A DNA stretch of 64,000 bases from Eubacteriales bacterium (GTDB lineage Bacteria > Bacillota > Clostridia > Oscillospirales > CAG-382), in the NCBI GenBank assembly GCA_028702135.1, contig JAQVPJ010000003.1, positions 1 through 64,000 on the forward strand. The letters are read 5' to 3'. Of the stretch, positions 12,167 to 25,088 are shown piece after piece. Numbering within the stretch: position 1 is the stretch's first letter; each line of letters opens with the position of its first letter. The notes beneath the pieces are model-generated. The model made no database searches, had not been told where the DNA came from, and saw only the letters and a list, made by a program, of their open reading frames with translations. The position numbers and the translations under genes were made by a program.

Positions 12167-12790
12167 ATGTTTTACAGAGCACTTAAAATATTACTGATAC
12201 CGTTTTTTAAGCTATTGTACAGAATAAAAGTTGTCGGCAGAGAAAACGAGCCTTCGGAGAATTATATCGCCTGTGCTAACCATTCGTCATATATCGATCC
12301 CGTATTGATCGCATACGCTCTTAAGCATACGCAGCGGTTTGTAGCACGCTCATCACTTGTAAGATTCGGTTTTTACCGCTGGTTGTTCCGCCGCGTCAAG
12401 GTTATCACAATTAACAGGGGGAGCACGGACATCTCCTCAATACGGACAATAACGCAGGCTGTCAGCGACGGTGATTGTGTGAGCATATTCCCTCAAGGTA
12501 CCAGAATAAAGGGAGTAATCCCCCGCCCCGAACAAGCTCAGGGCGGTATCGGTTTGTTAGCGGTAAAAACCAATGCACTCATACTCCCGGTTTCGATAAT
12601 CACAAAAAGATTACGCCCCAGATTGTTCAAGAAAACCGTTATTGTTATCGGAAAGGCGATTCCGGCTTCGGAATATCTGAACTGCTGCGAAAATTCCCGA
12701 AGCAAGGATATTGCCGTGTTTTTATTTTCAAGGGTTTGTATCCCTTTTGAAGGAATGAAGTCAGAAAAGAGCGATGTAGAGCATGGCTGA
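12167..12790 (+). CDS. plsC: 1-acyl-sn-glycerol-3-phosphate acyltransferase
   Basis: This membrane-associated enzyme acylates lysophosphatidic acid in phospholipid synthesis. The 207 residues begin with a hydrophobic segment. They show the acyltransferase HX4D box (NHSSYIDP), the block II region INRGSTDISSI and the FPQGTRIKG block III. The ATG follows the cmk stop with no gap. Its end overlaps the next gene by 8 bases, implying translational coupling. The C-terminal tail past residue 170 is poorly conserved. Confidence 0.9.
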   Translation: MFYRALKILLIPFFKLLYRIKVVGRENEPSENYIACANHSSYIDPVLIAYALKHTQRFVARSSLVRFGFYRWLFRRVKVITINRGSTDISSIRTITQAVSDGDCVSIFPQGTRIKGVIPRPEQAQGGIGLLAVKTNALILPVSIITKRLRPRLFKKTVIVIGKAIPASEYLNCCENSRSKDIAVFLFSRVCIPFEGMKSEKSDVEHG

Positions 12791-14981
12791 GATTACACTT
12801 GCAAAAAGCAGCGGTTTCTGTTTTGGGGTTAAGCGTGCCGTTACGCTGCTTGAGGATGAGCTTGGCAAAACGGAAAACGCAAGAAACGTTATTTCAATAG
12901 GCGAAATAATCCACAACAGAACCTTTACCGATTCCATAAAACGCCGTGGTGTAAGGATTATTGACCCGGAAACCATTGAAACGGTTGATTGGGATAAAAA
13001 CTCCGTGGCAATCATAAGGACGCACGGAGTTATTAAACAGGTTTATGAATATCTTGAAACGAATGATGTGTGCTATATCGATGCGACCTGCCCTTATGTG
13101 AAAAAGATATACAAAATAGTCGCAACACAACCTAAGGATTCGCTTATAATCATTATGGGCGATGAGAATCACCCGGAGGTTCAGGGAATCAGGAGCTTTG
13201 CGGAATGCGAAGTTCTTGTATTTTCCGATTTCGAGGAATTACAAAGCGGAATACCGAAAAACCCGCCTGAAGATAAGAATATAATACTTGTCGCACAGAC
13301 GACTTACAATATTAACCAGTGGGAAAAATGCCAAAAATTCATAAAATATCTATATACAAATTCGAGAATATTTGATACAATATGCAGTGTGACCGATGAA
13401 AGACAAAAAGAAATACTGTCCCTGTCGGCAGACAATGACCTTGTCGTTGTTGTCGGAGGAGCCTCCAGCTCTAATACGGCAAAGCTGTATGATATCGCTA
13501 TAAACAACTGTAAAGCAGCAATTCACATTGAAACTGCAGGAGAGCTTTTGGATTATCCCCCGCACTTTTTCAAAAAAGCAAAAAAAATAGCTATAACTGC
13601 GGGAGCTTCAACTCCGGGCAGCATAATACAGGAGGTTATACAAACAATGACAGAAATCACCAATGACGAACTCAGCTTTGCTGAAATGCTCGATCAGTCC
13701 TTTAAAACTTTAAATACAGGGGAAAGGGTAACCGGGGTCATCACATCGGTAAGTCCCTCGGAGATTCATGTAGACTTGGGAATCAAACACACGGGTATAC
13801 TACCATACGATGAGATTACTTCAGAGAGCGGTGTTGACCTTGAGAGGGAATTCCATGTCGGCGACAAGATTGAAGTTGTATGCATAAAATTCAACGACGT
13901 TGAAGGTATCGTCACTCTTTCCAAGAAAAGGCTTGACGCGAGTAAAAACTGGCAGGTCATTCAACAAGCGGCTGAGGAGGGCAGTATACTTTGTGGTACG
14001 GTCAGGGATGTTATCAGGGGCGGGTTGATCGCATATGTGCAATCCGTAAAGGTGTTTATTCCCGCATCACAGTCCGGAGTTCCCAGGGACGGCTCGCTTG
14101 AGTCTCTCAAGGGCCAAAAGGTAAAAATCAAGATCATCGAGATAAACGAGCAACGCAAGCGTGCAGTCGGTTCTATAAGAAACGCGGAGCGTTCGATTCA
14201 TAAAAAGGAGTCAGAAGAATTTTTTGCAACCGCAGAGGTTGGACAGAAGTTCAAAGGAACGGTTCGCTCGATTACGAATTATGGTGTTTTTGTAAATATC
14301 GGACCGGTCGACGGAATGGTTCACATCACCGAGCTTTCGTGGGGCAGACTTAAACCTCCTTCGGAGTTGTTTAACATCGGCGACGAGATTGATGTTTTTA
14401 TCAAGAATATCAACACCGAAAAAAAGCATATCTCACTCGGCTACAAAACCGAAGAGAACAATCCATGGAGAATTTTCGAAAATAAATACAAGGTTGACGA
14501 TATTGTGGACGCGAAGGTTGTAAGCCTTATGCCATTCGGCGCATTCGCAGAGATAATTCCGGGTGTCGACGGTCTTATTCACAATACTCAGATAGCGTTG
14601 AAACCGGTGGGAAATCCCGCTTCGGTTCTCAGAATCGGGGACAGTATAACCGCAAAGATAACTGCAATCGATCTTGAGAAAAACAGAGTAAGCCTTTCCA
14701 TAAAAGCACTGCTTGAGGAGGGAGATACTCCTGCCAGAGAAACCACTCCTGCTGAGGAAACCGCTCCTGCCGAGGAAATCGCTCCTGCCGAGGAAATCGC
14801 TCCTGCTGAGGAAATCGCTCCTGTCGAGGAAATCACTCCTGCCGAGGAAATCGCTCCTGCCGAGGAAAAAGTTCCTGCTGAGGAAATCACTCCTGCCGAG
14901 GAAATCACTTCTGCTGAGGATAATCCTTCATTCGAGAATTCCGAGGAAAACGATGTGGAGAAAGCAACAACCGCCGAATAA
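12783..14981 (+). CDS. ispH: IspH (HMBPP reductase) fused to ribosomal protein S1-like domains
   Basis: Residues 1-285 are IspH, the Fe-S enzyme reducing HMBPP to IPP and DMAPP in the last step of the MEP pathway. The cluster cysteines are at residues 13 (GFCFGVKRAV), 103 (DATCPYVKK) and 201 (FDTICSVTDE). Residues 310-640 hold four S1 RNA-binding domains, for example GVITSVSPSEIHVDLGIKHT and GTVRSITNYGVFVNIGPVDG. IspH-S1 fusions are known across Clostridia. The tail (about 645-732) is odd: a run of near-identical hexapeptides of the PAEEIA/PAEEIT type, acidic and probably disordered. It overlaps plsC by 8 bases. Confidence 0.95.
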   Translation: MAEITLAKSSGFCFGVKRAVTLLEDELGKTENARNVISIGEIIHNRTFTDSIKRRGVRIIDPETIETVDWDKNSVAIIRTHGVIKQVYEYLETNDVCYIDATCPYVKKIYKIVATQPKDSLIIIMGDENHPEVQGIRSFAECEVLVFSDFEELQSGIPKNPPEDKNIILVAQTTYNINQWEKCQKFIKYLYTNSRIFDTICSVTDERQKEILSLSADNDLVVVVGGASSSNTAKLYDIAINNCKAAIHIETAGELLDYPPHFFKKAKKIAITAGASTPGSIIQEVIQTMTEITNDELSFAEMLDQSFKTLNTGERVTGVITSVSPSEIHVDLGIKHTGILPYDEITSESGVDLEREFHVGDKIEVVCIKFNDVEGIVTLSKKRLDASKNWQVIQQAAEEGSILCGTVRDVIRGGLIAYVQSVKVFIPASQSGVPRDGSLESLKGQKVKIKIIEINEQRKRAVGSIRNAERSIHKKESEEFFATAEVGQKFKGTVRSITNYGVFVNIGPVDGMVHITELSWGRLKPPSELFNIGDEIDVFIKNINTEKKHISLGYKTEENNPWRIFENKYKVDDIVDAKVVSLMPFGAFAEIIPGVDGLIHNTQIALKPVGNPASVLRIGDSITAKITAIDLEKNRVSLSIKALLEEGDTPARETTPAEETAPAEEIAPAEEIAPAEEIAPVEEITPAEEIAPAEEKVPAEEITPAEEITSAEDNPSFENSEENDVEKATTAE
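14733..14930 (+). repeat. Tandem 18-bp coding repeats at the 3' end of ispH-rpsA
   Basis: About eleven imperfect 18-base units (consensus GCTCCTGCCGAGGAAATC) encode P-A-E-E-[IT]-[AT]. Copies differ mostly at third positions (GCT/GCC) and between GCT and ACT. Copy number is likely to vary between strains through slippage. There are no spacers, so this is not a CRISPR array. Confidence 0.9.
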
Positions 14982-15198: not shown

Positions 15199-15417
15199 AT
15201 GGAATTTGAACCTTTAAATGATTTTGTACCAAATGGCGAGTTGATCGAAAATTTGCTGGAGGAACACTCCTTCCCAAGCCGAATTTCGCTCGCAATGGCG
15301 TATGTTCCTTATCAGCCTTTCAATAATCTTTATGATAATGAAACCGGTTTTAGCAGGGGAACAATATTCAAAGCGCTTGATCTGCCTTTTTTAGGCGAAA
15401 AAGGAGCAGGAAAATGA
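15199..15417 (+). CDS. cotJA: Spore coat-associated protein CotJA
   Basis: The 72-residue first gene of the cotJ operon shows the CotJA core SLAMAYVPYQPFNNLYDNE...GTIFKALDLPF. CotJA and CotJC are inner-coat proteins that interact, and CotJC depends on CotJA in B. subtilis. AAAAGGAG lies about 14 bases before the ATG. Its end overlaps the cotJB start (ATGA). I could not find a clear sigma-E promoter in 15043-15198, although sigma-E control is known for this operon in B. subtilis. Confidence 0.88.
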   Translation: MEFEPLNDFVPNGELIENLLEEHSFPSRISLAMAYVPYQPFNNLYDNETGFSRGTIFKALDLPFLGEKGAGK

Positions 15418-15671
15418 ATAACGAAAGAGCACAGGCACTAAAAAAGCTCCAGATAATCTCTTTTGCAGTAAATGAAGCAGCCCTTTATCTTGACGGACAT
15501 CCGACAAATAAAATGGCATTGGCATTTTATGAAAAAGCGGTTAAGGAGCATAAAGATTTATTGGCTAAGTATGAAAAGACCTACGGTCCGATAACTTTTT
15601 TCAGCGCCAGCGGTCCTTCCTGGACCTGGGTACAAGGCCCATGGCCGTGGCAAAATGAAAGAGAGGCGTGA
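15414..15671 (+). CDS. cotJB: Spore coat protein CotJB
   Basis: The 85-residue protein matches CotJB: a helical N-terminus (ALKKLQIISFAVNEAALYLD), a YEKAVKEHKDLLAKYEKTYGP middle and a Trp/Pro-rich end (WTWVQGPWPWQNE). AAGGAG is well placed before the ATG. It sits between cotJA (4-base overlap) and the 5' part of cotJC (3-base gap). Confidence 0.92.
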   Translation: MNNERAQALKKLQIISFAVNEAALYLDGHPTNKMALAFYEKAVKEHKDLLAKYEKTYGPITFFSASGPSWTWVQGPWPWQNEREA

Positions 15672-15674
15672 CCT

Positions 15675-15878
15675 ATGTGGACATATACTAAAGCACTGCA
15701 ATACCCTGTAAACATCAAAAATCCCAACCCCGCAATGGCAAAGGTTATAATTACACAAATAGGAGGACCGGACGGTGAGCTCAGCGCCGGGGTGCGTTAC
15801 CTTTCTCAGCGATACTCAATGCCTTACAACGAGGTTGTTGGCATATTAAATGATGTAGGGACATATGTACCGTACTGA
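15675..15878 (+). CDS. cotJC: CotJC, 5' part (interrupted by the intervening element)
   Basis: Residues 1-63 (MWTYTKALQYPVNIK...RYLSQRYSMP...GILNDVGT) match the N-terminal third of CotJC, a manganese-catalase-family coat protein normally about 190-200 residues. After codon 62 or 63 the sequence leaves the family, adds YVPY and stops. The missing part (EELGHMEMV onward) is intact 8.8 kb downstream at 24674-25088. GAGAGG is spaced 8 bases before the ATG and the operon context is normal, so nothing suggests decay. Joining at the shared GG (15858-15859 with 24672-24673) restores a 199-residue protein in frame. Confidence 0.93.
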   Translation: MWTYTKALQYPVNIKNPNPAMAKVIITQIGGPDGELSAGVRYLSQRYSMPYNEVVGILNDVGTYVPY

Positions 15879-15880
15879 CG
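15837..15880 (+). repeat. attL: left junction of the cotJC-intervening element
   Basis: The host half (ending GATGTA) meets the core GG at 15858-15859. The element half (15860-15880) ends in TACTGACG. The complement of that half matches the other element end 24651-24671 at 13 of 21 positions (CGTCAnTnnGnTACnTnnGTn), forming a dyad centred on GG. Confidence 0.8.
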
Positions 15881-15894
15881 AAATTATAAAGATA

Positions 15895-17007
15895 TCACCG
15901 GTAGATTCTTTCGTGAAGTATTCTTTTGTTTTCATCGAAATTGATTTTTATAATTGACATGCCTCTATAAGTGGCATAGTACCAAGTGTCCTTTGCCGGA
16001 ATTACATCTGTTTCTATATTCGAATTATTCTTATCGAAGAAATCATATGCGAGAGAAATAATTGTACCGGAGCTTAAATTTGTCTTTACAAACCGAATGT
16101 TATCATTAATGAGTGTGACTATGTCTCCTACATTATCGAGTTCAAGCACTTTGTTCATTGCCGCTACAATTATGCGTCTCTGACGCTCCGTCCTTCCCCA
16201 ATCGTCACCGAGCCCTTTGCGTATGCGGGCAAATTCCAAAGCCATTTTGCCGTCAAAACTAACCTCGCCCTCTGTATAGTTTTTACCGTAATTTCTGTTC
16301 ATATAATCAGCTTCTTTTTTCGAAACAAATACCGTTACACCCTCGATTTTATCTATCAGGTTTATAAATCCATTGTAATCAATGCTTATGTAATGCTGGA
16401 TATCCAAGCCGTAAACATCATTGATAGTATTTATCGTAAGACCTGCTCCGCCCCAGGAATAAGAAGCGTTAAGCCTGTTCCATCCATGGTTCTCGATAGG
16501 AACAAGTGAATCCCGAAGTAATGAGTTAATGCTTACCTTACCGGTGTTCTTATTGTATGATAAAACCATCATACTGTCGCTGCGTCCGTTTCCACCCGAC
16601 GAGGAGTATACATCCCTGCCTATGAGCAAAACGTTTATTATAGTTTTATCTATTGGCTCGACGATATATATCGGCGTTTCTTTTGCCACACCGGAACTGC
16701 CCTTGTTCCCTTTGTTGTCATCATTATTGTTCCCGTCATTTTCTGAAGTATCGTCTTCAACCGATACTTCATCTCCCGTCTCGTTCTGCGATTCATCCTC
16801 ATCAACGGAACCCTCTATCGGAATAATCTCGCTCTCGTCCAGCTCCGGCCAGGAATATCCCCCGCTTTTTTCCACATAAGGTATACCCTCGTAAACCTTG
16901 CTGTACATTATTATACCAAAAATCAATACTGTCAGTATCGAGAGCAGCAGAAGCGAAGCGAGGGCAAAAAGACTCCATTTTATTATCTTTTTCGGTTTCT
17001 CCTTCAT
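15895..17007 (-). CDS. LytR-CpsA-Psr (LCP) family wall-polymer ligase
   Basis: LCP proteins transfer undecaprenyl-linked polymers such as teichoic acids or capsule onto peptidoglycan outside the membrane. The 370-residue protein has an N-terminal anchor (SLFALASLLLLSILTVLIFG) and an acidic, Asn/Gly-rich linker of about 50 residues. The LCP domain shows INVLLIGRDVYSSSGGNGRS and DSMMVLSYN, the SLLRDSLVPI Arg motif, and FARIRKGLGDDWGRTERQRR. It lies inside the cotJC element, its stop only 15 bases from the attP arm. It is the last gene of a minus-strand series with sugar-nucleotide genes, suggesting one polymer pathway. Confidence 0.9.
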   Translation of the reverse strand: MKEKPKKIIKWSLFALASLLLLSILTVLIFGIIMYSKVYEGIPYVEKSGGYSWPELDESEIIPIEGSVDEDESQNETGDEVSVEDDTSENDGNNNDDNKGNKGSSGVAKETPIYIVEPIDKTIINVLLIGRDVYSSSGGNGRSDSMMVLSYNKNTGKVSINSLLRDSLVPIENHGWNRLNASYSWGGAGLTINTINDVYGLDIQHYISIDYNGFINLIDKIEGVTVFVSKKEADYMNRNYGKNYTEGEVSFDGKMALEFARIRKGLGDDWGRTERQRRIIVAAMNKVLELDNVGDIVTLINDNIRFVKTNLSSGTIISLAYDFFDKNNSNIETDVIPAKDTWYYATYRGMSIIKINFDENKRILHERIYR

Positions 17008-17088: not shown

Positions 17089-18966
17089 TTAATTATCTCC
17101 GTTTATTACATATGTCGGCACAATACTTTTTATCTGTTCCTTTATATCGGCAGCTTCCTCATAACAGGATTTGTATAGGACATCCAGTTTTTTAAGAAAC
17201 TCTTCCTCGTCCATTTTAATCGGTCTTCCGATATGAATAAGTCTGTTTTCTGTGTCCTGCAACCCCTCTTCCTTCATCAAAAGCTCCTCATAGAGCTTCT
17301 CTCCAGGACGTAGACCGGTTATCTCGATAGAAATATCCTCGTAAGGCTTATAACCTGATAAACGTATGAGGTTTTCCGCAAGGTCGATAATCTTCATCGG
17401 CTCGCCCATTTCAAGCACGAAAATCTCGCCACCCTTTGCGTACGCGCCTGCCTGTAAAACAAGAGAAACCGCTTCGGGTATTGTCATAAAGTAGCGGATG
17501 ATATCCTTATGTGTGACGGTTACCGGACCTCCCGCGGCTATCTGCTTTTTGAACAGAGGAACCACGCTCCCATTTGAACCGAGAACGTTTCCGAACCTGA
17601 CCGCAACGAATTCCGTTTTTGATTTTTTGTTGTAGGTCTGAATTATCATCTCGCAGATTCGCTTTGACGCACCCATAATATTCGTCGGATTTACCGCTTT
17701 ATCGGTAGAAATCATAACAAATCGTTCCGTACCGTATTTATCAGCGGCAATTACGGTATTCAAAGTGCCGAATACATTGTTTTTTATAGCCTCGTTGGGG
17801 CTTGACTCCATCAGAGGAACATGCTTGTGAGCGGCAGCGTGGTATACGATGTTCGGGCGGTATTCCTCAAATATCTTTTCTATCCTGAGCGAATTGCGAA
17901 CAGATGCGATCAGAGTAACGATATCCAGTCCGCTGTATTTTGCTTTTAACTCCTGTTGAATGTCATAAGCGTTGTTTTCATAAATATCGACGATAATCAG
18001 CTTTTTCGGATCGAAAGAGGCTATCTGCCTGCAAAGCTCGCTGCCGATTGAACCGCCGCCGCCTGTAACCATTACCACCTTATCTTTAACATAGTTCTTA
18101 ATTGAGCATAGCTCAACCTTTATAGGGTCTCTGCCTAACAAATCCTCGATTTCAACGTCTCTGAGCTTGCTTACAAAGACCTCACCATTCATAAGCTGAT
18201 AAATCCCGGGTAGAATCTTCAGCCGGCAATTTGTCACCTTGCAGATCTCTACGATTTCGCTTACAATCTTTCTCGAAACAGAGGGCATCGCTATTATAAT
18301 TTCATTAATCTTATAATATTCTGCCGCTTCTATTATGTTCTCCCTGGTACCGACAACTTCTATTCCCTGTATATATTTACCCTGCTTTTCAGGATTATCG
18401 TCAATTATACACTTTACGACCGTATTCATTATGCGGCTGCTCGATTTTATCTCCTTGATAATAACATTGGTTGCCTCACCGCCGCCAATTATCATAACTC
18501 TTGAATATTTCCCGTTGTTTTTCGGCTTTTTCAATAAGTATCTTAAAAGCCGGTATGCAAATCTGCTTGCCATAACAAGCATTATAAGTACGCCCATAAA
18601 GAGAAAATAATAGCTTCTCGGAACCGGAAATCCCGAAAGTATCATACCTATACAGTTTAAAACGGAAGTGATGACACAAGCGGAAAAAATATTAATTAGC
18701 TCAGTTACTCCCGCAAAAATCCATAGGCTCTGGTACAATCTGAACAGTCGAAAAACCAAAACAGTTACTATTATATTAATCGGCAGGTAGTTCAGCACAG
18801 AACTAACGTATAAGTGAAAAAACGGATTGTCGATGTCAAGATCGAACCTTAGCAACAATCCGAGTAAGCTCGCAGTTATTACAATAACCGAATCCAGCAA
18901 AACCAAAAATATTTTATTCAGTAAAAGCTGATTATCTGATATTTTTTTATGCATTTCCAAAATCAA
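17089..18966 (-). CDS. Membrane-bound UDP-sugar 4,6-dehydratase (PglF/CapD/WbpM family)
   Basis: This long-form polysaccharide biosynthesis protein has 625 residues. Four or so N-terminal membrane helices (residues 15-130) lead to a nucleotide-binding regulatory domain (VMIIGGGEATNVIIKEI). The SDR catalytic domain has VTGGGGSIGSELCRQI, AAAHKHVPLME and STDKAVNPTNIMGASKR. Family members convert UDP-GlcNAc to the 4-keto-6-deoxy sugar. The YxxxK position reads MGASK, as in known 4,6-dehydratases. The start is TTG 18966 or possibly ATG 18954; neither has a strong ribosome site. Being separate from capE, it probably supplies a second deoxy-amino sugar. Confidence 0.88.
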   Translation of the reverse strand: MILEMHKKISDNQLLLNKIFLVLLDSVIVITASLLGLLLRFDLDIDNPFFHLYVSSVLNYLPINIIVTVLVFRLFRLYQSLWIFAGVTELINIFSACVITSVLNCIGMILSGFPVPRSYYFLFMGVLIMLVMASRFAYRLLRYLLKKPKNNGKYSRVMIIGGGEATNVIIKEIKSSSRIMNTVVKCIIDDNPEKQGKYIQGIEVVGTRENIIEAAEYYKINEIIIAMPSVSRKIVSEIVEICKVTNCRLKILPGIYQLMNGEVFVSKLRDVEIEDLLGRDPIKVELCSIKNYVKDKVVMVTGGGGSIGSELCRQIASFDPKKLIIVDIYENNAYDIQQELKAKYSGLDIVTLIASVRNSLRIEKIFEEYRPNIVYHAAAHKHVPLMESSPNEAIKNNVFGTLNTVIAADKYGTERFVMISTDKAVNPTNIMGASKRICEMIIQTYNKKSKTEFVAVRFGNVLGSNGSVVPLFKKQIAAGGPVTVTHKDIIRYFMTIPEAVSLVLQAGAYAKGGEIFVLEMGEPMKIIDLAENLIRLSGYKPYEDISIEITGLRPGEKLYEELLMKEEGLQDTENRLIHIGRPIKMDEEEFLKKLDVLYKSCYEEAADIKEQIKSIVPTYVINGDN

Positions 18967-19077: not shown

Positions 19078-20208
19078 TTACTTCTTTCTCCAGACCATAT
19101 GATTCACAACTCCGGTATAGCTCTGTATAAGCTTAACAACCTTCGTGCTTACGTTTGTGTCAGTATAATTCGGAACATCCAGTCCGTGATCCCCGTTTTT
19201 TTGCATTTGTGTCGCAAGTTCAACCGCCTGCAAAACCTGCTCGGTTGTTATGCTTCCTATAATAAAGTTTCCCTTATCGAGCGCTTCGGGACGTTCTGTG
19301 CTGGTTCTTACGCAGACTGCCGGAAAGGAATGAAAAAACGAGCTTTCCTCCGGAAGTGTTCCGCTGTCGGAAACCACGCAGAAAGAATTTATCTGCAGGT
19401 TGTTATAATCGGAAAATCCAAAAGGCGGAAGACTCCTTACATTCTTGTGGAATATAAATCCTCTTGCCTCGATATATTTCTTGCTTCTCGGATGCGTGGA
19501 ATAAATGACCGGCATTCCGTACTTTTCCGCCATGGCGTTGACGGCGTTCATAAGTGCGAAAAAGTTATTCTCGTTGTCAATATTCTCCTCGCGGTGTGCG
19601 GATAACAGGATATATTTACCTTTTTCAAGACCGAGTTTTTCAAGCACCCTGCTGTCTTTTATCTTTTGAATATTTGCGTTCAATACCTCCGCCATGGGAG
19701 AGCCGGTTACATATGTGCGCTCCTTTGCGGTTCCCTCGGCATTAAGATAACGCCTTGCATGCTCGCTGTAACAAAGGTTAACATCCGCTATGTGATCTAC
19801 TATCCTTCTGTTTGTCTCCTCGGGAAGATTCTCATCGAAGCAGCGATTTCCCGCTTCCATATGGAAAATCGGGATTTTCAGTCTTTTTGCCGAAATTGCG
19901 GATAGAGCGGAGTTTGTGTCTCCGAGGATAAGCAGTGCGTCGGGTTTAAGCTCCGACATCAGCTTATAGCTTTTGGCAATGATATTTCCGATTGTCTCCC
20001 CTAAATCCTCTCCAACAGCGTCGAGATAAAAATCCGGTTTACGCAGTCCTAAATCCTCAAAAAATATCTGATTAAGCGTATAATCATAATTCTGTCCGGT
20101 GTGAACAAGCGTATGTTCAAAATACTTATCGCACTTTTTTATAACCTCGGAAAGCCGAATTATCTCCGGTCTTGTTCCAAGAATAGTCATAAGCTTAAGT
20201 TTACTCAT
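19078..20208 (-). CDS. capG: UDP-N-acetylglucosamine 2-epimerase family (CapG/FnlC-like)
   Basis: In the CapE-CapF-CapG (FnlA-FnlB-FnlC) route this enzyme epimerises C2 in the last step to UDP-L-FucNAc. The 376 residues are typical: TILGTRPEIIRLSEVI, VHTGQNYDYTLNQIFFEDLG, ILGDTNSALSA, HMEAGNRCFDENLPEETNRR, LSAHREENID and SDSGTLPEESSF. The family also includes WecB, so specificity comes from context. capF starts two bases upstream and capE precedes it, the exact FucNAc gene order. Confidence 0.9.
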   Translation of the reverse strand: MSKLKLMTILGTRPEIIRLSEVIKKCDKYFEHTLVHTGQNYDYTLNQIFFEDLGLRKPDFYLDAVGEDLGETIGNIIAKSYKLMSELKPDALLILGDTNSALSAISAKRLKIPIFHMEAGNRCFDENLPEETNRRIVDHIADVNLCYSEHARRYLNAEGTAKERTYVTGSPMAEVLNANIQKIKDSRVLEKLGLEKGKYILLSAHREENIDNENNFFALMNAVNAMAEKYGMPVIYSTHPRSKKYIEARGFIFHKNVRSLPPFGFSDYNNLQINSFCVVSDSGTLPEESSFFHSFPAVCVRTSTERPEALDKGNFIIGSITTEQVLQAVELATQMQKNGDHGLDVPNYTDTNVSTKVVKLIQSYTGVVNHMVWRKK

Positions 20209-20209
20209 C

Positions 20210-21322
20210 TCACACCTCTAAAAATATAGTGTCCGGCTTATCGGGGTCGAATGTCTCGCTTGCCCACATAAATGTTACCATATCGTTCTCACCGAGGTTC
20301 TCGATATTGTGTGTGTATCCCGTCGGAATATCAACAACAACGAGTTCTCTTCCGTTAACATAATACTCTAATATTTCCTCGCTGTCAACCCTGCGCAACC
20401 GTATAACTCCCCTGCCGCTAACTACAACAAACTTCTCGTTTTTTGTGTTGTGCCAATGGTTTCCCTTAACTATACCCGGCTTTGAAATGTTGACAGAAAA
20501 CTGACCCCTGTCTGTGGTTTTTATTATCTCGGTAAAACTTCCCCTGTTGTCTTTATTCATTTTCAACGGATAACTAAAGCAGTCCTTTGGCAGATATGAC
20601 AAATATGTAGCATAGAGCTTCCTTGTAAAATCATCAGACAAGTCGGGAACGCTTCTCTCCTCGCGAGATGCTTTAAACGAATATATCAAATCGACTATTT
20701 CACCCAGCGTTTTTGTGTAGAAAACGGGAATGCTGCAATAATTATCCGGGCATATATTTGCTCTCCCCTCAAGAGCGTTTACGAGTTCCTGCACAACATC
20801 ATCAATATACACAAGATTCAAAACAGTGTTGCGGTCGTTTACCATTATCGGAAGACCGCTTGCGATATTATTGCAAAAGGTTGCGACCGCGCTGTTATAG
20901 TTCGGTCTGCACCATTTACCGAAAACATTCGGGAACCGGTAAACGAATACCTTCGCACCCGTTTCTTTGCCGTAGTCAAAAATAAGCTTTTCTCCGGCCT
21001 TTTTGCTCTGTCCGTAAGGGTTGTCATTTGCCGCCTGAGTTGAGGAGGATATCATAATCGGGCATTTATTGTTATTTTTACGCAAAGTATCGAGCAAAAT
21101 CGAAGTAAAACCGAAATTGCCGGTCATATACTCGCTCTGTTCCTTAGGCCGGTTCACTCCGGCAAGATGGAAAACAAAATCAGCTTCCCTGCAAAATGCG
21201 TCGAGAGAGTCTGGATCAGTATCGAGGTCATATTCAAAAATGTCGTTATACTTTCTGCAACAAAGCTCAGCTTTAAGATTCTTACCTATAAAACCCTTTG
21301 CGCCTGTAATAAGTATCTTCAT
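20210..21322 (-). CDS. capF: CapF/FnlB-like bifunctional UDP-sugar epimerase-reductase
   Basis: This is the second enzyme of UDP-L-FucNAc synthesis. The N-terminal SDR domain reduces the 4-keto sugar with NADPH and the C-terminal cupin domain (Zn) epimerises C3. The 370 residues show MKILITGAKGFIGKNL, FHLAGVNRP and SSSTQAANDNPYGQSKKAGE with the catalytic YxxxK. The cupin region is ISKPGIVKGNHWHNTKNEKF with metal-ligand His residues. It lies three bases after capE and one base before capG, tightly co-transcribed. Confidence 0.92.
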   Translation of the reverse strand: MKILITGAKGFIGKNLKAELCCRKYNDIFEYDLDTDPDSLDAFCREADFVFHLAGVNRPKEQSEYMTGNFGFTSILLDTLRKNNNKCPIMISSSTQAANDNPYGQSKKAGEKLIFDYGKETGAKVFVYRFPNVFGKWCRPNYNSAVATFCNNIASGLPIMVNDRNTVLNLVYIDDVVQELVNALEGRANICPDNYCSIPVFYTKTLGEIVDLIYSFKASREERSVPDLSDDFTRKLYATYLSYLPKDCFSYPLKMNKDNRGSFTEIIKTTDRGQFSVNISKPGIVKGNHWHNTKNEKFVVVSGRGVIRLRRVDSEEILEYYVNGRELVVVDIPTGYTHNIENLGENDMVTFMWASETFDPDKPDTIFLEV

Positions 21323-21325
21323 GCC

Positions 21326-22366
21326 TTATCTGTTCTCCCAAGCGGCAATTTCTTCCCTTATAAACGGAAGTGAAAGCAGCTTCTCCTTGACCTGTTCAAT
21401 ACTGAGCATTCTCGTGTTGTTGGAGTTGAATTCGGTTATTTTATTACGCTTTTCATCGCCCTTGATGAAAAACTTATCATAATTCAAATCTCGTTTGTCG
21501 CAGGGAACACGGTAAAAGCCACCCAAATCTACAGCATGAGCGCATTCCTCGTTAGTGAGCAGCGTTTCATACATCTTCTCCCCATGGCGGATACCTATGA
21601 TTCTGGTTTCGGTATCGGCATTGAACAACTCGCAAACCGCCCTTGCCAGCACACCGATTGTACAAGCGGGAGCTTTCTGCACCATAATATCACCGCTTTC
21701 CGCATTCTCAAACGCATATAACACGAGATCCACCGCTTCGTCAAGGCTCATAATAAACCGGGTCATATCTGGATCGGTAACTGTAATGGGCTTTCCCGAC
21801 TTAATCTGTTCGATAAAAAGCGGAACAACACTCCCCCGTGAGCAAAGCACATTACCATAGCGTGTGCAGCATATCTTTGTTTTTTCGGGCTTTACGGTTC
21901 TGCTTTTTGCAACTATGACCTTTTCCATCATCGCTTTTGAAGTGCCCATAGCGTTTACGGGATAAGCCGCCTTGTCAGTTGACAGGCAGATAATGGATTT
22001 TACTCCCTCCTCAATCCCAGCAGTAAGCACATTGTCGGTACCTAAAACGTTGGTCTTCACCGCTTCCATTGGAAAAAACTCACAGGAGGGAACCTGTTTG
22101 AGTGCCGCCGCGTGGAAAACATAATCAACACCGTGCATAGCATTTTTTATGCTTGATATATCGCGGACATTGCCGATATAGAATTTTATTTTATCGCTCA
22201 TCTCAGGCAGCTTTGCTTGATATAGATGACGCATATCATCTTGTTTCTTCTCATCGCGTGAGAAAATTCGTATCTCCCCGATATCGGTATTGAGAAAACG
22301 ATCGAGAACAGCATTACCGAAAGAGCCTGTCCCACCGGTAATCAGAAGGGTTTTGTCCTTAAACAT
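21326..22366 (-). CDS. capE: CapE/FnlA-like UDP-GlcNAc inverting 4,6-dehydratase/5-epimerase
   Basis: This is the first enzyme of UDP-L-FucNAc synthesis, making the UDP-4-keto-6-deoxy sugar and inverting C5. It lacks membrane helices, unlike the 625-residue dehydratase downstream. Motifs are MFKDKTLLITGGTGSFGNAV, AAALKQVPSCEFFPMEAVKTN and STDKAAYPVNAMGTSKAMMEK; the last shows the Met-for-Tyr substitution and AMMEKV typical of CapE. A later block is TRYGNVLCSRGSVVPLF. I chose ATG 22366 because AAGGAGA is spaced seven bases upstream; the TTG at 22387 is inside the leader. It heads the minus-strand operon of the element. Confidence 0.92.
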   Translation of the reverse strand: MFKDKTLLITGGTGSFGNAVLDRFLNTDIGEIRIFSRDEKKQDDMRHLYQAKLPEMSDKIKFYIGNVRDISSIKNAMHGVDYVFHAAALKQVPSCEFFPMEAVKTNVLGTDNVLTAGIEEGVKSIICLSTDKAAYPVNAMGTSKAMMEKVIVAKSRTVKPEKTKICCTRYGNVLCSRGSVVPLFIEQIKSGKPITVTDPDMTRFIMSLDEAVDLVLYAFENAESGDIMVQKAPACTIGVLARAVCELFNADTETRIIGIRHGEKMYETLLTNEECAHAVDLGGFYRVPCDKRDLNYDKFFIKGDEKRNKITEFNSNNTRMLSIEQVKEKLLSLPFIREEIAAWENR

Positions 22367-22387
22367 TTTTATCTTCTCCTTAAGCAA

Positions 22388-22961
22388 TCTTTGCTCAAAT
22401 AAACATTATTTATAAGTGTACTATATACAACAAAATTGAATGTAAGTTTCTCGGTATTTTTCCCGGCACCTTGTCTTATGTAAAATCCGTATCGTTATCC
22501 TCCGCTTTCCAGAAATAACCACAATGCGCTTGATTGATATGGCGGCAGATTCATTCTCCGGATGACACAAATTCAGAGCTTATATAGTTCAAAATGCATC
22601 TGAAAAATACTTACCCATTCCTGTTACCGATGTTCTTATTATACTTAATCTGTTTAGCGTTTCTTGTCTTTTTTACCGTATCTATCATCATTTTATATGA
22701 CACTGTCGTCATAATCAGCCAATCATGTCAATGCTGTAAATCATGGTATATTTCAGATAGTTGCCTGCAAAGATCGGTAATCGGAAAATCATTAACATCA
22801 TACATTATTCATACACTGTAATATTGTTATATTATATCATACGCAAGTAAAAAGTACAATACCGAAAAAAATGTATATGAGATACTGAAAGCAGAGCAGT
22901 GGATATGCAAATTACCGTTTGTTTTCCACCGATATCTACCATACATGGAATGGAGCTTACT
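22388..22961. other. Divergent intergenic region inside the element
   Basis: This 574-base AT-rich gap separates capE from the recombinase unit and must hold both promoters. I see one candidate sigma-E promoter for the recombinase (listed separately) and no convincing sigma-A promoter for capE. A hydrophobic ORF at 22594-22821 has no ribosome site or recognisable similarity and I do not call it. Confidence 0.6.
22789..22817 (+). promoter_or_regulatory. Candidate sigma-E promoter of the recombinase unit
   Basis: CATACACT (22810-22817) matches the sigma-E -10 consensus CATACAMT at all eight positions. TCATTAA (22789-22795) lies 14 bases upstream and matches only the first four positions of the -35. 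Sigma-E control is known for spoIVCA, the B. subtilis skin recombinase. The 140-base leader is long. Confidence 0.4.
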
Positions 22962-23192
22962 ATGGCAAAGAATATTGAATATAAATATATCATAAACCCA
23001 AGTATTGTCGAGTCTGATCACGAAAAGCAAAGCATATTTTCCGATATATTTAAAAAATCTATCATGCTTTCTCTTTTGGACAAGGAAATGCTTACAAAAA
23101 ATCAGTACGAGAAGTGCTTGTATGCGATTATGGATGGAGGTATGTTCCGAAGCGATGAGGATTGCGGTATATTGCAGGGTTTCGACCGATAA
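22962..23192 (+). CDS. Small protein coupled to the recombinase (candidate accessory factor)
   Basis: The 76-residue product starts MAKNIEYKYIINP and has TGGAG six bases before the ATG. The middle (SLLDKEMLTKNQYEKCL) resembles the short helical motif of SHOCT-type proteins. No membrane segment or signal is visible. Its last 38 bases overlap the recombinase start in another frame, so the two are probably translationally coupled. Small ORFs in this position sometimes encode recombination directionality factors; that role is inference, since I cannot see similarity to a characterised one. Confidence 0.65.
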   Translation: MAKNIEYKYIINPSIVESDHEKQSIFSDIFKKSIMLSLLDKEMLTKNQYEKCLYAIMDGGMFRSDEDCGILQGFDR

Positions 23193-24642
23193 GGACGATC
23201 AAATCAATTCGTTAGAAAGCCAAAAGCGGTTTTTCAGGGAATATATCGAGCGTAATCCGTCATGGGAGCTGACGAAGATATACAGCGACGAGGGCATATC
23301 GGGCACAAGCACAAAAAAGAGGCACTCTTTCAACAGAATGATTGATGATGCGTGCGAGCATCGATTTGAATTGATTATCACAAAAGAGATAAGCCGTTTT
23401 GCGAGGAATACGCTTGACAGTATCTATTATACAAGAAAGCTCAAGAATTACGGTGTCGGAGTAATTTTCATGAATGACAACATAAATACTCTCGACCCGG
23501 ACGCAGAGCTTAGACTTACAATAATGTCCTCAATAGCGCAGGAGGAGAGCCGGAAAATTTCGGAAAGGGTGAAATGGGGACAAAAACGGCGTATGGAGCA
23601 GGGTGTTGTTTTCGGAAGAGATATGCTTGGATACGATATCCGCAGCGGAACCCTTTTTATAAACAAGAACGGTGCGGAAACCGTGAAGCTGATATTTCAT
23701 AAGTATCTGAATGAGGGTAAGGGCACTCATAAAATTGCACAGGAGCTTCGTGAGTCGGGAATTCCTACTGCTTCTCATATGAAAAACTGGAACAACACCG
23801 TTATTTCAAGGATTCTGCGAAACGAAAAATACTGCGGGGACCTTATACAAAAAAAGACCTATACGCCAAGCTATCTGAGTCATGAAAAAAAACCCAACCG
23901 CGGTTATGAGGATTTTGTGGTCATTCGCAATCACCATGAACCGATAATAAGCCGTGATTTATTTGAAAAGACTCAGCAAGAGCTGGAAAGACGCTCTGTC
24001 TCAATTGAACGTAGGTCAAGGTATTCCAGCCGTTACTGTCTGTCAGGGAAAATCAAGTGCGGGAACTGCGGTTCTTCGTTCGTGTCACGTTTAAGAAAAA
24101 GAAAAAACGGCGAGCCATATATGTCATGGCGTTGTTATGAGGCGGTGATACACGGTAAAAAGCATTCCGAATCTTCTGGCGATACAAAGGGCTGCGACAA
24201 CAGTACAGTTAGTGACGGTGATATCAAGCAGGTACTGCTTTGTGCCGTACGGGAACTAATTCCATATACAGTAAAGACCACAGAAAAGCTCATAAACACT
24301 ATACAAAGGGTTTTAAACGTTGAACATCAAGAAAATCGATACAAAGACTCCGAGACTTTTAACGATAAAAGGCAGGCGCTTCTTGAATTATACCTGAACA
24401 ATGATATTTCCATCGACGATTTCCGGCTGATGAACAAAAAAATCGTATCAGTAGAACCTGCAATAAAAAAAGAACCGGAAAAGGACTCTTTCAATCCGGT
24501 TAATACGGAGATGCGTGAATATATCAAACTTCTCTCTTCGGGAGAAATATGGGACGATGCCTTCTACAGAAACCTAATAGAAAGCGTTATAGTACATACT
24601 AATAATACCATTGTAGTCCGTATTCGGTTGCAAACTTTATAA
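23155..24642 (+). CDS. Large serine recombinase (SpoIVCA-like site-specific recombinase)
   Basis: From ATG 23155 it is 495 residues. The N-terminal resolvase domain (1-150) opens MRIAVYCRVSTDKDDQ with nucleophile Ser10. YSDEGISGTSTKKRHSFNRM and TKEISRFARNTLDS supply conserved Arg residues. The recombinase domain (about 165-270) includes NNTVISRILRNEKYCGDL. A zinc ribbon follows (GKIKCGNCGSSF, then Cys further on), and a helical, probably coiled-coil, C-terminus. The ORF can be read 50 codons further upstream, but family similarity starts at this ATG. It ends 30 bases before the right core site, the usual position for an integrase next to its att site. Confidence 0.93.
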   Translation: MRIAVYCRVSTDKDDQINSLESQKRFFREYIERNPSWELTKIYSDEGISGTSTKKRHSFNRMIDDACEHRFELIITKEISRFARNTLDSIYYTRKLKNYGVGVIFMNDNINTLDPDAELRLTIMSSIAQEESRKISERVKWGQKRRMEQGVVFGRDMLGYDIRSGTLFINKNGAETVKLIFHKYLNEGKGTHKIAQELRESGIPTASHMKNWNNTVISRILRNEKYCGDLIQKKTYTPSYLSHEKKPNRGYEDFVVIRNHHEPIISRDLFEKTQQELERRSVSIERRSRYSSRYCLSGKIKCGNCGSSFVSRLRKRKNGEPYMSWRCYEAVIHGKKHSESSGDTKGCDNSTVSDGDIKQVLLCAVRELIPYTVKTTEKLINTIQRVLNVEHQENRYKDSETFNDKRQALLELYLNNDISIDDFRLMNKKIVSVEPAIKKEPEKDSFNPVNTEMREYIKLLSSGEIWDDAFYRNLIESVIVHTNNTIVVRIRLQTL

Positions 24643-24650
24643 ATTTTTTC

Positions 24651-24693
24651 CGTCATTTTGATACCTCGGTGGGTACTGAGGAGCTGGGTCATA
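24651..24693 (+). repeat. attR: right junction of the cotJC-intervening element
   Basis: The element half 24651-24671 begins CGTCATTTTGATACC. The core GG is at 24672-24673 and the host half begins TACTGAGGAG. The distance from the outer base of the CGTCA arm to the core (21 bases) equals that on the left side. Host halves from both junctions join as GATGTA-GG-TACTGAG, giving codons for V-G-T-E. Confidence 0.8.
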
Positions 24694-25088
24694 TGGAGAT
24701 GGTAAGCGCAATCGTATATCAGCTTACCAGAAACCTTACAATAGACCAGATAAAGGAAGCTGGTTTTGACACCTATTTTGTAGACCACACTACCGGAATT
24801 TATACTCAGGCAGCTTCGGGTGTTCCCTTTACAGCAAGCTTTTTCCAATCTAAGGGAGACGCGATAACCGACATCAACGAAGACCTTGCCGCGGAGCAGA
24901 AAGCGAGAACAACATATGACAACATATTGCGTCTTTCGGACGATCCCGATGTAAAGGATGTTATCCGCTTTTTACGTGCGCGTGAGATTGTGCATTACCA
25001 GCGCTTCGGTGACGCGCTAAGAATAATACAGGATAATCTTGATTACAAGAACTTCTATGCTTTTAATCCCGCGTTTGATAAGAGATAA
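24674..25088 (+). CDS. cotJC: CotJC, 3' part (reconstituted after excision)
   Basis: It encodes the remaining two thirds of CotJC in the frame of the 5' part: EELGHMEMVSAIVYQL, then AASGVPFTASFFQSKGDAI, DINEDLAAEQKARTTYDNIL and RFLRAREIVHYQRFGDAL. These include the Glu/His ligand motifs of the manganese-catalase fold (ExxGHxEM, EQKAR, REIVHYQRF). There is a GTG at 24669 but no ribosome site before it, so it should not be translated alone. A strong terminator follows. The reading frame has no stops or shifts, which argues for continued selection. Confidence 0.93.

Follow-up and report, generated by a model that had tools for sequence, protein, structure and literature searches.

An intervening element in the sporulation gene cotJC and a small protein, paired with its large serine recombinase, as candidate directionality factor

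Known genes that are rebuilt by excision in spore-formers are few and mostly single examples, i.e., sigK, spsM, spoVFB, spoVR, gerE, kamA and yabG, and further split sporulation genes were reportedly described by Abe et al. in 2013 (Mol Microbiol). In the skin element of Bacillus subtilis, the 64-codon skr gene, which encodes a recombination directionality factor (RDF), is located immediately upstream of the recombinase gene spoIVCA and overlaps it by 101 nt (PMC6957869). Small RDFs of elements of this kind include Skr, CD1234, SprB and GirX (PMC6957869, PMC5025042, PMC5595907). The locus analyzed here lies within a 64,000-nucleotide stretch of DNA from a Eubacteriales bacterium (the window). 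As in skin, a sporulation gene is divided in two, a large serine recombinase is encoded inside the element, and a small ORF (ORF76) lies directly upstream of the recombinase and overlaps it in another frame; the corresponding skin genes are read from a sigma-E promoter (PMC6957869). The proven skr-spoIVCA pair is the closest precedent for ORF76 and its recombinase, although the target is cotJC instead of sigK and the element comprises 8.8 kb without phage genes, in contrast to the 48 kb of skin.

Other described systems share some of these features. SPbeta in spsM (SprA/YokA, SprB/YotN) has an integrase of the same broad family, a small RDF and a sporulation gene as its target; however, SPbeta is an active phage whose int and rdf genes are located at its two opposite ends, and SprB shows no significant similarity to the ORF76 family. 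For skinCd of Clostridioides difficile (CD1231, CD1234) we list as likenesses a 72-aa RDF, CD1234, sigma-E control and excision in the mother cell (PMC5025042), whereas its RDF gene is apart from the recombinase gene and its target is sigK. The gin element in Bacillus cereus gerE (GirC, GirX) is likewise a non-phage element with a recombinase and an RDF (PMC5595907), but it spans 28.6 kb, encodes three recombinases and is inserted in gerE. The yin element splits a clostridial coat-related gene, yabG of Clostridium botulinum, and carries a recombinase and a predicted 53-aa RDF (PMC10747680); it is a single known case, in contrast to dozens of cotJC cases.

The host cotJ operon begins with cotJA (15199..15417, plus strand), an ORF assigned by its translated sequence and its position ahead of cotJB (15414..15671, plus strand; Pfam CotJB, E = 8e-26). 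The third gene, cotJC, is split, which the initial annotation had not mentioned. Its 5' part is an ORF at 15675..15878 on the plus strand, with true coding sequence at 15675-15859 followed by read-through into the element, and matches Pfam Mn_catalase positions 1-64 (E = 5e-16). The 3' part (24672..25088, plus strand) matches positions 63-197 (E = 5e-32) and joins the 5' part in frame. These two pieces are the sole Mn_catalase (PF05067) matches in the whole genome, indicating a single copy of cotJC. The element separating them comprises about 8.8 kb (about 15.86-24.67 kb), and in silico joining at the crossover yields a 199-residue CotJC reading frame, similar to the intact copies of about 200 codons that occur in many genomes of the window's family. 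The locus, with a sporulation gene that is split and becomes in frame on precise excision (joined in silico), meets the membership criterion for skin-, SPbeta- and gin-type elements. Just 5' of the cotJ operon, inspection by eye revealed an IspH-ribosomal protein S1-like fusion whose tail is a low-complexity PAEEI repeat (12783-14981).

The crossover was placed by aligning about 60 attL and 24 attR junctions. The attL site (15858..15883, plus strand) consists of the crossover GG at 15858-15859 and an element arm extending to TGACG, while attR (24648..24673, plus strand; unique in the window) consists of the element arm TTCCGTCATTTTGATACCTCGGTG and the crossover GG at 24672-24673. In the largest group of loci the attP arms form an inverted repeat around GG, GGAACATTTCcGATGCTTCTnnn-GG-nnnAGAAGCnnCnGAAATGTTCC; the arms in the window read CGTCA-16 nt-GG-16 nt-TGACG. 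The rebuilt window attP has 15 of 24 palindromic positions, and not one of the 2548 sites in the window that are centred on GG attains this value. The junction alignment and the attP palindrome thus both place the crossover at 15858-15859 and 24672-24673, and the split gene, the att sites and the in-frame product are shown by these comparisons. In a conserved CotJC stretch, D-[IV]-G-T-E-E-L (ND-V-GTEEL), the Gly codon begins with the central GG.

The large serine recombinase (23155..24642, plus strand; 495 aa) contains Resolvase, Recombinase and Zn_ribbon_recom domains and resembles the SPbeta YokA/SprA structures 9dxd/9dxh. It ends at 24642 and the attR core begins at 24672, so that the membership criterion of an element-encoded recombinase adjoining an att site is also met. 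In addition to ORF76 and the recombinase, the element contains five sugar-nucleotide and glycopolymer genes, all on the minus strand: an LCP-family glycopolymer transferase (15895..17007), a CapD/PglF-type nucleotide-sugar 4,6-dehydratase (17089..18966; Polysacc_synt_2, E = 3e-124), a WecB-type UDP-GlcNAc 2-epimerase (19078..20208; above the NCBIfam wecB cut-off), a WbcJ/CapF-like reductase (20210..21322; 405 bits, under the NCBIfam equivalog cut-off of 500) and a FnlA/CapE-like dehydratase/epimerase (21326..22387; 520 bits, under the NCBIfam equivalog cut-off of 730). The last three together (19078-22387) suggest a UDP-N-acetyl-L-fucosamine pathway, and it is possible that the cargo, including the LCP transferase, is linked to a spore or capsule polysaccharide. 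The base composition of the element does not stand out.

ORF76 (22962..23192, plus strand) comprises 76 codons and starts with ATG. The initial annotation had given it a ribosome site of its own and a 38-base overlap with the recombinase start in another frame. Both were confirmed: GGAG is present at 22952..22955 (plus strand), 6 nt ahead of the ATG, and the overlap is 38 nt when counted from the recombinase ATG at 23155; from an alternative in-frame ATG at 23134 it would be 59 nt. Of the SHOCT-like motif described there, the sequence stood and the label did not: LLDKEMLTKNQYEK is found in ORF76, but in the profile search that had been proposed neither ORF76 nor 19 relatives matched SHOCT (PF09851) at E<=1, and a SHOCT identity was rejected as none of the 20 family members matches. 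Searches of Pfam/NCBIfam gave no convincing family among these 20 members, and no match to ORF76 was found in PHROG or in the phage collection searched. To our knowledge, known RDFs are not alike in sequence. SprB, the sole known RDF compared, had no significant sequence similarity to the ORF76 family (2.2 bits), and membership of ORF76 in the SprB family was rejected on this score.

A search with the recombinase yielded 80 loci from Clostridia with 50-62% identity; Roseburia sp. 1XD42-69, Dorea sp. 5-2 and Parablautia muri are examples of cultured relatives that have this system. In 76 of the 80, a cotJC piece was present within the fetched stretch, usually directly at the 3' end of the recombinase, and the family profile detected the small ORF in 76/80; in the four loci without it, either no more than about 200 nt separate the recombinase from the contig end or the recombinase is truncated. 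The small ORF is retained even where it is displaced from the recombinase or located at the far element end (L016, L022, L032, L067, L070), with a group II intron protein gene inserted between the two in L070 and the small ORF at the far end in L032. In an unbiased search, the small-protein profile alone was run against 291 genomes of the class and gave 17 matches, including that of the window itself. Every one of them lies immediately ahead of a related recombinase (45-63% identical outside the window), and a cotJC piece lies no more than 5 kb away in 13 of the 16 loci other than the window. The conserved pairing of the small protein with the recombinase and with cotJC is shown by these comparisons, and the membership criterion for an RDF, a small element-encoded protein paired with the integrase, is met. 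Lack of conservation beside related recombinases had been named in the initial annotation as a result that would refute the idea, which survived this comparison. Small-protein and recombinase distances are correlated (Mantel r = 0.84; 34 non-redundant loci), although such correlated divergence is also expected from linkage alone.

The orientation of the recombinase varies among these loci. It is co-oriented with cotJC and beside the 3' part in six (the window, L007, L008, L010, L066 and L078), and reversed and beside the 5' part in most of 63 other loci; the tree requires at least four orientation changes, and the flip in att polarity is without explanation. Two very small relatives of the element, L032 (428-3270) and L037 (8621-11695), measure about 3 kb and contain little beyond the recombinase, its small ORF and two further small genes, which in L037 look ParD/ParE-like by eye. 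A human fecal record named 'Bacteriophage sp.' (L136, MT839280) holds cotJB, the cotJC 5' part, a related recombinase and its small ORF; it was rejected as a free circle, being a piece of chromosomal cotJC.

Based on these data, we consider it likely that ORF76 is the RDF of a skin/SPbeta-like element that splits cotJC and is excised in sporulation, with excision, ORF76-recombinase binding and mother-cell timing in the source organism being inferred only. An excision factor is to be expected for an element that interrupts a sporulation gene. During vegetative growth the element would stay integrated, with cotJC off. ORF76 and the recombinase would be produced together once the mother cell sporulates, and binding of ORF76 to the recombinase would allow attL to be synapsed with attR; the recombinase would cut at the GG dinucleotide and free the element as a circle, and cotJC would be rejoined into a 199-codon gene for a Mn-catalase coat protein. 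The spore chromosome would retain the element, which would therefore be inherited. Although there are no recombination data, the directionality-factor reading of the initial annotation is well supported by the comparison, i.e., by the 76/80 and 17/17 pairing, the split cotJC and the skr-spoIVCA-like layout. Counted against it are the lack of SprB similarity, the lack of a clear sigma-E promoter in the window and the source assembly, in which neither a rejoined cotJC nor a free circle was seen. Viral contigs scanned for joined attP, as free circles would have, gave none. As ORF76 and the recombinase share one operon, the integrase would never be produced without the factor, which leaves integration in the absence of the factor unexplained; the same holds for B. 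subtilis skin.

The sigma-E regulon of B. subtilis includes cotJB and cotJC (PMC3416734). The 160 bp ahead of the small-ORF start were scanned with a hand-made sigma-E pattern (ATA-N17-CATAYANT) against dinucleotide shuffles. In the relatives, sigma-E-like patterns are enriched immediately ahead of the small ORF (20 of 39 non-redundant upstream regions at p of about 0.05 or less), with the -10 typically ending 17-30 nt ahead of the small-ORF start. The combined p of about 1e-16 overstates the strength of this enrichment, as the upstream regions are partly related. For excision in the mother cell, this enrichment and the purifying selection on the cotJC halves are indirect indications only. In the window, the scan of the 160 bp before ORF76 was not above the shuffles (p = 0.72); the best candidate there is a weak putative promoter, TCATTAA-N14-CATACACT (22789..22817, plus strand), about 145 nt upstream of ORF76.

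Strict linkage and co-divergence with the recombinase are silent on what ORF76 does. Its AlphaFold2 model is a confidently predicted helical hairpin (residues 20-40 and 46-57, core pLDDT near 96), and a structure search with this model returned helical-hairpin matches only and was uninformative. The linkage and the plain fold leave room for ORF76 to regulate the recombinase or to serve as its accessory subunit, for instance as a stabiliser, promoter repressor or translational coupler, without setting direction, in an element that is still excised in sporulation. We regard this as unlikely, as large serine recombinases of such elements generally require an RDF for attL x attR recombination (PMC5025042, PMC5595907, PMC6957869). 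Furthermore, in small relatives of approximately 3 kb such as L032 and L037 the other genes resemble cargo of unrelated kinds, so that no RDF candidate but the small ORF is shared.

That the excised form was not seen in the assembly would also fit a dead insertion, with cotJC permanently broken and ORF76 and the recombinase either relics or serving only transfer to other cells. Loss of a CotJC-type catalase is tolerable in some species, as C. difficile mutants showed no significant coat defect (PMC11222575). The state of the gene itself makes this explanation quite improbable. Compared with two other genomes of its genus, the cotJC 5' part of the window has a dN of 0.12-0.13 and a dS that is saturated or nearly so (about 2). 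The low dN indicates that the protein is under selection, even though the gene appears interrupted in all three genomes: in G002 a distant recombinase (39%) adjoins the cotJC 5' part, and in G001 the break falls a few codons later and the two halves of cotJC are on different contigs, so that a contig break is not excluded as part of this pattern. Both halves retain open frames with low dN/dS within the genus and, judged by their substitutions, are under purifying selection. In addition, neither the recombinase nor ORF76 is disrupted, the att palindrome has been kept, and the arrangement recurs in many Clostridia.

ORF76 is matched at E = 1.9e-8 in the sequence tested by a profile for which 14 small ORFs from other loci, but not the window, were used; it is thus a genuine member of a conserved family, as opposed to a frame open by chance. 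In relatives, eight of nine usable comparisons of small-ORF pairs gave dN/dS of about 0.05-0.13, the exception being the close pair L012/L016 (0.77); on codon-level evidence alone, the small ORF is under purifying selection. A chance ORF or short leader over the recombinase start, for which its shortness and lack of a match in protein family libraries might speak, is very unlikely given this conservation, and together with the confident modelled helical core we give it practically no weight.

The larger finding is that the intervening elements in cotJC form a widespread family, many of them with a dedicated pair of recombinase and small protein. We found no report of cotJC interruption in the open-access literature, although earlier mention is not excluded. 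In a survey of 61 genomes of the window's family and 196 of the class, cotJC was intact in most, with breaks at profile positions of about 62-66 (the window site), 28-33, 43 and 147-152. A 3' Mn_catalase fragment starting at positions 55-65 was present in at least 28 of the 132 Mn_catalase-bearing class genomes, some of which may be explained by contig breaks. In three loci, cotJC is in three pieces (L035, 3543-8181; L042, 11728-15272; L083, 14289-17603), in the order residues 1-31, an element of a second type, residues about 28-66, a window-type element and the 3' part. The second element carries a second, different large serine recombinase. We lean towards the view that cotJC is a general hotspot in Clostridia, entered by at least three recombinase types at four positions, with some doubly split genes rejoined by two systems per sporulating mother cell and the ORF76 family as the RDF of the commonest type. 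The dozens of natural att sites with matched integrase-RDF pairs would allow testing of how directionality is set, and these systems are possible tools for genome engineering. They also raise the question as to why a catalase-like coat gene is so favoured as a target.

Breaks at about residues 43 and 147-152 were observed in L127, L129 and L131 and in genomes G003, G008, G024, G036 and G031; in L127 and L129, the recombinase beside the cotJC break is only 28% identical to that of the window. In a genome of the window's family, a very distant large serine recombinase (L122, 7068-8663; 531 aa, 22% identity in part) belongs to an element inserted almost at the cotJC position of the window (GTEEC junction).
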